The translations under genes were made by a program, and so were the position numbers. This document shows positions 40,496 to 64,000 of a stretch of DNA of 64,000 nucleotides, piece by piece. Every line of letters starts with the position of its first letter. Within the stretch, counting starts at the first letter, position 1. This DNA is from Volvox africanus (Eukaryota; Chlorophyta; Chlorophyceae; Chlamydomonadales; Volvocaceae): NCBI GenBank assembly GCA_030268105.1, contig BSDZ01000040.1, forward strand, positions 555,243 to 619,242, given 5' to 3'. Below the pieces are notes generated by a model, which was not told where the DNA came from, did not search any database, and saw nothing but the letters and a program-made list of their open reading frames with translations.

Positions 40496-43400
40496 CTAGC
40501 TAGGGCTATTGGGGATTCGGGGGATTATTGGCTGGATTCCTACGGTGCTCGCGGGACAGCATTTGAACTCATCGTCCAAGATGGTATACGTACAGCCGCC
40601 ATCTCCGTAGCACAGCCCCTCTGGTGTACCACATTTTTTGAATGAGTCCATGACCATGCAGAAGTTGAACCCTGCCGTTTGCACTTTGGGCAGGTTGACT
40701 CCCAGGTTACGAACGGTCATAACACCGTACGGAACGTGGCTCGAAAATTCAACCGTATACACAGGAGAAACTCTCACTCCGTTGAGCGTCGCACGAAGGA
40801 TTGATTTCGGAAGCTCTATGGCGCACGATACCTCTGCAGGGCATGAAGCATTAGTGAGGGGTTTGGGTATGTTAGTTTCGGAGTTGCCAAAGAAATGTTG
40901 TTTTACGTATAGGTGTGTGTAGGCGCTGCCACAGCCCAAGCAGTGGAAATGATGAGCAGGCGTCAATGCAGAATCTTACCATAATACGCCCTGTCCCACG
41001 AGCACCGTGGGCTAAAGGGCCGCTCTTAATGCAGGATGACACCCTCCCCTGTATTGCTGTAACTCACAATGATGGTGTTAAAGACGTTCACATGACATAA
41101 CCATGGGTCTCCCTTACATGTATATCAATCTAATCCATGCAGTTGAATATCTCTTCATGCTTACTTATGAGGAACTGGACCTTGTAAATCTCCATAGTGC
41201 CGCAGGGCTTGCTGCGGATAATCGACAGGTATTTGTTGGCGCGTGCAAAGATTCGAAAACAAAACGTAGTGTTGGCAGCTGTGTTGTCGGGCATCTCAAC
41301 GATTGAGCCCAAAATGTAAGGTGACACGTCGGTCGGCTTGCGATTGTACGCGCAAGTACAAAATGGGAACACGGGAAGGCTTCTCCCGAACAAGGGAGTT
41401 GAAGGTTCCCTTCGGGGTGGCGGCAATGGAACTGCCGGTGGCGGCCTTTGCTCATTGACAGGAGGTTCTGACAATTGCGGAGATGTCGAAGGTGGAAATA
41501 TGTGAGGAGGAGATGGTTCAGAGGGAATTAAAGCATAAGTTGGTGGATACAGGTAAGGAGAAGCATTCAGCCCTACAGGTATTGGTGATATAGGTGTATA
41601 AGGACTGTCCATAGGAGGCGAACTAAAAGGAGGATAGTAGCTTGGTGGAGGGTATATAACATGACTTGGTGGAAGAGGTGAGGGGTGCCGTGCCGGACGC
41701 CTGCGGGCCGGCAAGGAAGGCGAGGGAGTGGATGGCTGGGGTGGCTGGGTCGGGCCCAGAGGGGAGGGCGGAAGGAGCGGGGGTGCTGGGCTGGATGGCG
41801 GGCTGTGGGGCTCAGGGCTGGGAGGAGAGGGCGGCTTAGGGGAGGGAGGCGAGGGAGTGGATGGCTGGGGTGGCTGGGTCGGGCCCAGAGGGGAGGGCGG
41901 AAGGAGCGGGGTTGCTGGGCTGGATGGCGGGCTGTGGGGCTCAGGGCTGGGAGGAGAGGGCGGCTTAGGGGAGGGAGGCGAGGGAGTGGATGGCTGGGGT
42001 GGCTGGGTCGGGCCCAGAGGGGAGGGCGGAAGGAGCGGGGGTGCTGGGCTGGATGGCGGGCTGTGGGGCTCAGGGCTGGGAGGAGAGGGCGGCATAGGGG
42101 AGGGAGGCGAGGGAGTGGATGGCTGGGGTGGCTGGGTCGGGCCCAGAGGGGAGGGCGGAAGGAGCGGGGTTGCTGGGCTGGATGGCGGGCTGTGGGGCTC
42201 AGGGCTGGGAGGAGAGGGCGGCTTAGGGGAGGGAGGCGAGGGAGTGGATGGCTGGGGTGGCTGGGTCGGGCCCAGAGGGGAGGGCGGAAGGAGCGGGGTT
42301 GCTGGGCTGGATGGCGGGCTGTGGGGCTCAGGGCTGGGAGGAGAGGGCGGCTGAGGGGAGGGAGGTGGGGTAGAGGATGGCTGGGGTGGCTGGGTCGGGC
42401 CCAGAGGGGAGGGCGGAAGGAGCGGGGGTGCTGGGCTGGATGGCGGGCTGTGGGGCTCAGGGCTGGGAGGAGCGGGCGGCTGAGCCGAGGAAGGCGAGGG
42501 AGTGGATGGCTGGGGTGGCTGGGTCGGGCCCAGAGGGGAGGGCGGAAGGAGCGGGGGTGCTGGGCTGGATGGCGGGCTGTGGGGCTCAGGGCTGGGAGGA
42601 GAGGGCGGCTGAGGGGAGGGAGGCGAGGGAGTGGATGGCTGGGGTGGCTGGGTCGGGCCCAGAGGGGAGGGCGGAAGGAGCGGGGTTGCTGGGCTGGATG
42701 GCGGGCTGTGGGGCTCAGGGCTGGGAGGAGAGGGCGGCTTAGGGGAGGGAGGCGAGGGAGAGGATGGCTGGGGTGGCTGGGTCGGGCCCAGAGGGGAGGG
42801 CGGAAGGAGCGGGGGTGCTGGGCTGGATGGCGGGCTGTGGGGCTCAGGGCTGGGAGGAGAGGGCGGCTGAGGGGAGGGAGGCGAGGGAGTGGATGGCTGG
42901 GGTGGCTGGGTCGGGCCCAGAGGGGAGGGCGGAAGGAGCGGGGGTGCTGGGCTGGATGGCGGGCTGTGGGGCTCAGGGCTGGGAGGAGCGGGCGGCTGAG
43001 CCGAGGAAGGCGAGGGAGTGGATGGCTGGGGTGGCTGGGTCGGGCCCAGAGGGGAGGGCGGAAGGAGCGGGGGTGCTGGGCTGGATGGCGGGCTGTGGGG
43101 CTCAGGGCTGGGAGGAGAGGGCGGCTGAGTGGAGGGAGGCGAGGGAGAGGATGGCTGGGGTGGCTGGGTCGGGCCCAGAGGGGAGGGCGGAAGGAGCGGG
43201 GTTGCTGGGCTGGATGGCGGGCTGTGGGGCTCAGGGCTGGGAGGAGAGGGCGGCTTAGCTGAGGGAGGCGAGGGAGATGATGGCTGGGGTTGCTGGGTCG
43301 GGCCCAGAGGGGAGGGCGGAAGGAGCGGGGGTGCTGGGCTGGATGGCGGGCTGTGGGGCTCAGGGCTGGGAGGAGCGGGCGGCTGAGCCGAGGAAGGCGA

Positions 43401-64000: not shown

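Follow-up and report, generated by a model that had tools for sequence, protein, structure and literature searches.

The 129-bp tandem array that closes the window (the whole 64,000-nucleotide stretch analysed, G000:C39:555243-619242) probably forms the middle of a single gene whose two parts lie on contigs C43 and C39, separated by an assembly gap, and whose predicted product is a secreted, pherophorin-related matrix glycoprotein at least about 17,000 residues long. The visible half lies on the minus strand of C39, on which the unit reads as a 43-residue Pro/Ser-rich repeat. TRF placed 172.8 copies at 41714-64000 with 96% matches and 0% indels, and pattern matching counted 173 copies without an indel (of 409 known), the array being cut by the end of C39. 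The sequence-only reading, which had described about 173 in-frame units running open to the window edge, was therefore accurate on both points; the contig itself stops at window base 64000, which is why the frame is still open there. At the other end of the array, the giant exon finishes with a non-repeated Pro-rich linker and the N-terminal half of a pherophorin domain (41165-41713, minus strand), followed within the domain by a predicted 331-nt GT..AG intron (40834-41164, minus strand; inferred from sequence, and matched in position by a GT donor in genes on contigs C5 and C75) and by the last coding exon, which holds the C-terminal half of the domain and the stop codon (40496-40833, minus strand). 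Joining the exons over this intron gave a visible product of 7,723 residues ending at 40496, against the roughly 7,700 first estimated. The spliced C-terminal end matched the pherophorin family PF12499 with 86.4 bits (E 3.4e-24) over domain positions 1-148 of 148, bearing out the proposed pherophorin C-terminus, and this domain is in frame with the 173 copies of the unit. The contour length of more than 2 micrometres proposed for the visible part likewise holds by its own arithmetic of 0.31 nm per residue.

The array-bearing frame runs for 7,622 codons without a stop, counted from the window edge. Since another frame of the minus strand likewise runs open, for 7,475 codons, openness by itself is weak proof of a coding frame; the named frame stands out because both coding regions that flank the array, one on C39 and the other on C43, run into the array in this frame.

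We searched for the unit across the whole assembly (140,993,249 bases, 126 contigs). A 40-base unit pattern with up to one mismatch matched 173 times on one strand and 236 times on the other, and a 30-base unit core with up to three mismatches again returned 173 and 236. All 409 matches of both patterns were confined to two contig ends, the 173 in the window and 236 on the plus strand of C43 (G000:C43:278495-311365), where they accompany a shorter Pro-rich rod and N-terminal exons. In the coding direction, C43 presents an ATG at 278495, followed by a hydrophobic stretch and a Cys-rich region; next comes a Pro-rich (PPSP) rod of about 1.2 kb, which enters the array in a frame matching that on C39. 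Like C39, C43 terminates within the array, and the two contigs are in complementary orientation. The two array ends have no stretch of at least four consecutive identical units in common and hence do not overlap. A single gene broken by the assembly is the most economical reading of the two contig ends, and we infer the join on that basis.

With 236 more units and an N-terminus on C43, the length given by the sequence-only reading proves too small, the protein likely having at least 17,000 residues. That reading had also looked to sequence past 64000 for a signal peptide and N-terminal domain: C39 ends there, and a signal-peptide-like N-terminus is found on C43 instead. It had held, too, that a stop or frameshift between array and N-terminus would speak against the gene. 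This applies only in part: the 26 kb of array adjoining the N-terminus contain none, but five 1-bp indels are present within the final 4.2 kb of C43.

The two contigs might alternatively carry separate genes with a homogenised common repeat, each with its other half absent from the assembly. No sequence bridges C43 and C39, and 95 of the 108 unit types are confined to one half, as such an arrangement would allow. It would require two more array-bearing ends that are absent from the assembly, however, and orientation and frame are consistent with one gene; mean unit identity between the halves (0.960) is also close to that within them (0.956 and 0.964). We regard a pair of genes as very unlikely and proceed with a single one.

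The predicted protein of this single gene comprises 17,134 residues when the C43 tip is left out of the count and 18,525 by length, with whatever lies in the C43/C39 gap coming on top. Unit length is exactly 129 bp in all 172 whole units on C39 and in 230 of the 235 on C43. The five units that deviate are all within the final 4.2 kb of C43; over this stretch the reading frame changes five times and ends back in the original one. The last quarter of the C43 units, which includes these five, has lowered unit identity. The indels are probably errors of the contig tip, where assembly quality is probably poorest.

Parts of the array are also duplicated exactly. On C43, a 26-unit block (units 127-152) recurs from unit 171, and there are further exact duplications of 15 and 10 units on C43 and of 10 units on C39, reflecting either recent unequal exchange within the array or assembly duplication; for the 26-unit copy close to the C43 tip, an artefact of assembly is possible. 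This raises the possibility that the gene is real and its length inflated by false duplication near the contig tips, the true rod being several times shorter. Besides the 26- and 15-unit blocks, each present twice near the end of C43, the sequencing route is compatible with such an error: the published Thai V. africanus assembly is described as 129 contigs and 141.0 Mbp from PacBio Sequel data with Canu and Pilon (PMC10291315), and Canu was run on Sequel subreads amounting to 27.7 Gbp in 1.48 million reads, according to the same description, which comes to a mean of about 19 kb. The halves nevertheless differ in unit order, with 95 of 108 types found in one half only, although the 13 types common to both cover 74 of the 172 C39 units and 141 of the 235 C43 units. 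Cutting C43 from unit 171 onwards would still leave about 344 units overall, or nearly 14,800 array residues. Collapse of near-identical units is a common assembly error, and it would shorten the array rather than lengthen it. We consider a several-fold inflation unlikely, and continue with a length of at least about 17,000 residues.

We next asked whether the repeat behaves as coding sequence. Across both halves, 402 of 407 units were free of indels, against 66 distinct point variants accumulated, and the sequence supports frame keeping in the array. GT dinucleotides occurred only 8 times in the 52.5-kb array, compared with about 1,034 expected from base composition; since GT is needed for splice donors, splicing inside the array is unlikely, and Pro/Ser codons explain part of the scarcity. 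The variants themselves gave no sign of purifying selection on the amino acids of the repeats. We found no excess of synonymous changes among unit variants read in the coding frame (observed 17, expected 18.3; fraction of simulations at or above, 0.70), and the deficit of stops was not significant (0 seen, 1.2 expected; 0.24). The other open frame fared no worse, with 22 synonymous variants against 19.8 expected. Variation was unevenly spread along the unit: the core PLLPPSPLGPTQ held 3 of the 66 variants where about 18 were expected, and none of 5,000 permutations in a scan gave a value as low. The codons of this core, a quarter of the 129-bp unit, are nearly invariant over 402 units, and its 12 third positions carry no variant, compared with 20 over the 31 third positions elsewhere in the unit. 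Because its third positions are invariant as well, protein selection alone does not explain the core, which points to a DNA-level cause (for example, gene conversion) or an RNA-level constraint.

These data bear on whether the array is instead a decayed or non-coding minisatellite grown inside a former pherophorin gene, from which no full-length protein is made. A period divisible by three gives long open frames trivially, and such an origin would accommodate the missing synonymous excess, the second frame open for thousands of codons on the same strand, the frame switches in the C43 tip and the invariant third positions of the core. As a partial control, we compared arrays in two other pherophorin genes of the same assembly. 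The 63-bp array on contig C35 had no frame switches in 6 kb, so that frame keeping is not peculiar to the 129-bp array, whereas the 42-bp array on C37 had 3 in 6 kb. Set against a decayed minisatellite are this switching in a comparable array, the rarity of indels in the face of so many point variants, the intact C-terminal domain over a plausible intron and the open N-terminus. On balance, we judge a non-coding array distinctly unlikely and retain the coding one.

The C-terminal domain places the product among relatives of a known family. The N-terminus on C43 is strongly hydrophobic around residues 19-36, with a hydropathy peak of 2.73 over residues 22-36, and is predicted from its sequence to be signal-peptide-like, suggesting secretion. 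It had no Pfam match up to E = 1, whether queried as exon 1, as the next exon or as two trial joins, and the N-terminal exon matched only itself in the genome. Two weak matches to esterase sequences in the PDB (E 0.051) were dismissed, as was a single NCBIfam match far below the cut-off; an intermediate N-terminal exon put into a joined query was without support, and a two-exon start was preferred. At E ≤ 0.001, no relative emerged from protein searches with three queries: the N-terminus, the C-terminal domain, and the end of the array together with the C-terminus (compared with candidates of about 4,200-13,300 aa). In the PDB, too, the C-terminal domain had no match up to E = 1. The C-terminal PF12499 domain is present, and the N-terminal PF12499 domain of a typical dumbbell pherophorin was not recognised up to E = 1; we therefore call the protein pherophorin-related rather than a typical pherophorin. 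The Pro-rich rod is found on both C39 and C43, and the two ends presumably belong to one protein. The counted 17,134 residues contain 2,520 SP and 2,541 PP dipeptides, and the repeat is predicted to be hydroxylated and O-glycosylated.

Within the same genome, the nearest seven C-terminal paralogues, on C75, C5 and C21, share 36-39% identity over part of the domain. Two pherophorin-related chimeras whose C-terminal domains are among the nearest (C5:1719429-1722350 and C75:5039350-5044635) resemble the C43/C39 gene in having a Pro-rich rod, a GT donor at the corresponding point of the pherophorin domain and an N-terminal stretch without a Pfam match. Their rods are only a few hundred residues long and lack a long tandem array, and by eye the N-termini of all three genes differ from one another. 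The genes used for the frame comparison are similar in another respect, each having a PF12499 domain followed by a Pro-rich stretch of long tandem arrays: the gene on C35 (G000:C35:498744-505200) has 68 and 27 copies of 63-bp units in a Pro-rich frame, and that on C37 (G000:C37:325082-331700) has 144 copies of a 42-bp unit in a Pro-rich frame with three frame changes as assembled. Both differ from the C43/C39 gene in their units and in arrays that are shorter than the 129-bp array within the stretch examined. The C43/C39 gene is thus the extreme of a class of array-bearing pherophorins, and the description of the window as holding an undescribed system was too strong: the gene is a relative, if an extreme one, of a glycoprotein family already known, and at least two other pherophorin genes of this genome have multi-kb arrays.

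V. carteri is reported to have 118 pherophorin genes, among them SSG185, PhG and pherophorin II (PMC9818292, PMC12377771), and published accounts characterise pherophorins as secreted glycoproteins of the matrix whose prolines are hydroxylated (PMC9818292, PMC12377771). The V. carteri proteins in these accounts share with the C43/C39 product a PF12499 C-terminus, a Pro-rich rod and predicted secretion and matrix location (PMC9818292, PMC12377771). They differ in that the N-terminal domain of the C43/C39 product is not recognised as PF12499 and in the length of the Pro-rich stretch, which averages 89 residues in V. carteri as given in PMC9818292 and comes to about 16,000 or more here. In that account, pherophorins whose Pro-rich stretches exceed 250 residues contribute only about 0.9% of pherophorin expression in V. 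carteri (PMC9818292), which counts against an abundant structural role and would suit a specialised strand better than a bulk component. Chlamydomonas MST1 and other algal hydroxyproline-rich glycoproteins, described as Pro-rich with a glycosylated PPII helix (PMC11015965), are likewise Pro-rich; unlike the C43/C39 product, MST1 is listed with 1,927 residues and a single 78-residue poly(proline) region (PMC11015965). In predicted size, the product falls near the giant polyketide synthases: a plant proteome survey lists predicted algal proteins of up to 22,244 residues, polyketide synthases included (PMC6681478), with 22,244 aa in V. carteri and 21,004 aa in C. reinhardtii (PMC6681478). These are enzymes, whereas the C43/C39 product is a predicted matrix repeat protein. 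A literature search largely limited to open-access journal articles brought up neither this gene nor any pherophorin of similar size.

How such a protein would act can be outlined from its parts. By analogy with pherophorins, the end domains, predicted to be globular, would crosslink or bind matrix, and the glycosylated repeat chain would serve as a spacer between them, behaving as a hydrated semiflexible polymer. Two pherophorins are reported to have polymerised in vitro, and fibre-like structures are described between adjacent cells of V. carteri (both PMC12377771). Taking the figure of 0.31 nm per residue from the sequence-only reading, the contour would be at least 5.3 micrometres. Polyproline chains are semiflexible; because of this, the chain should coil over micrometres and would act as a gel strand or tether more than as a straight rod. 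More speculatively, the LL-containing core, recurring every ~13 nm of contour, might offer a regular contact site. Array length would probably grow and shrink by unequal exchange between units. We tentatively propose, as a possibility well short of probable, that one polypeptide of at least 18,500 residues and at least 5.7 micrometres of contour (cell-length alone) acts as a telechelic cable crosslinking neighbouring Volvox matrix compartments, with a coding macrosatellite setting its length and recombination changing it, such that strains with different repeat numbers could differ in matrix mesh size. If made, the protein would be among the largest predicted in algae and two orders of magnitude longer than typical pherophorin rods, and one gene would make the question of what spans the Volvox matrix compartments directly testable. 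The case would also suggest why such genes go missed, an array that breaks assemblies leaving annotation with two truncated halves.

Elsewhere in the window, kinase-like open frames on the plus strand span 20781-23496 and 36364-37776. The frame at 36364-37776 matched a protein kinase domain above the cut-off (E 2e-11), and matches to the same domain at 22849-23496 (E 1.2e-05) and 20781-21263 (E 0.006), both also on the plus strand, were below it. A 30-bp unit is repeated 54.7 times at 4391-6031 with 99% identity and several open frames on both strands, likely a young non-coding minisatellite, and a (TAGA) microsatellite of about 55 copies occupies 38390-38611.
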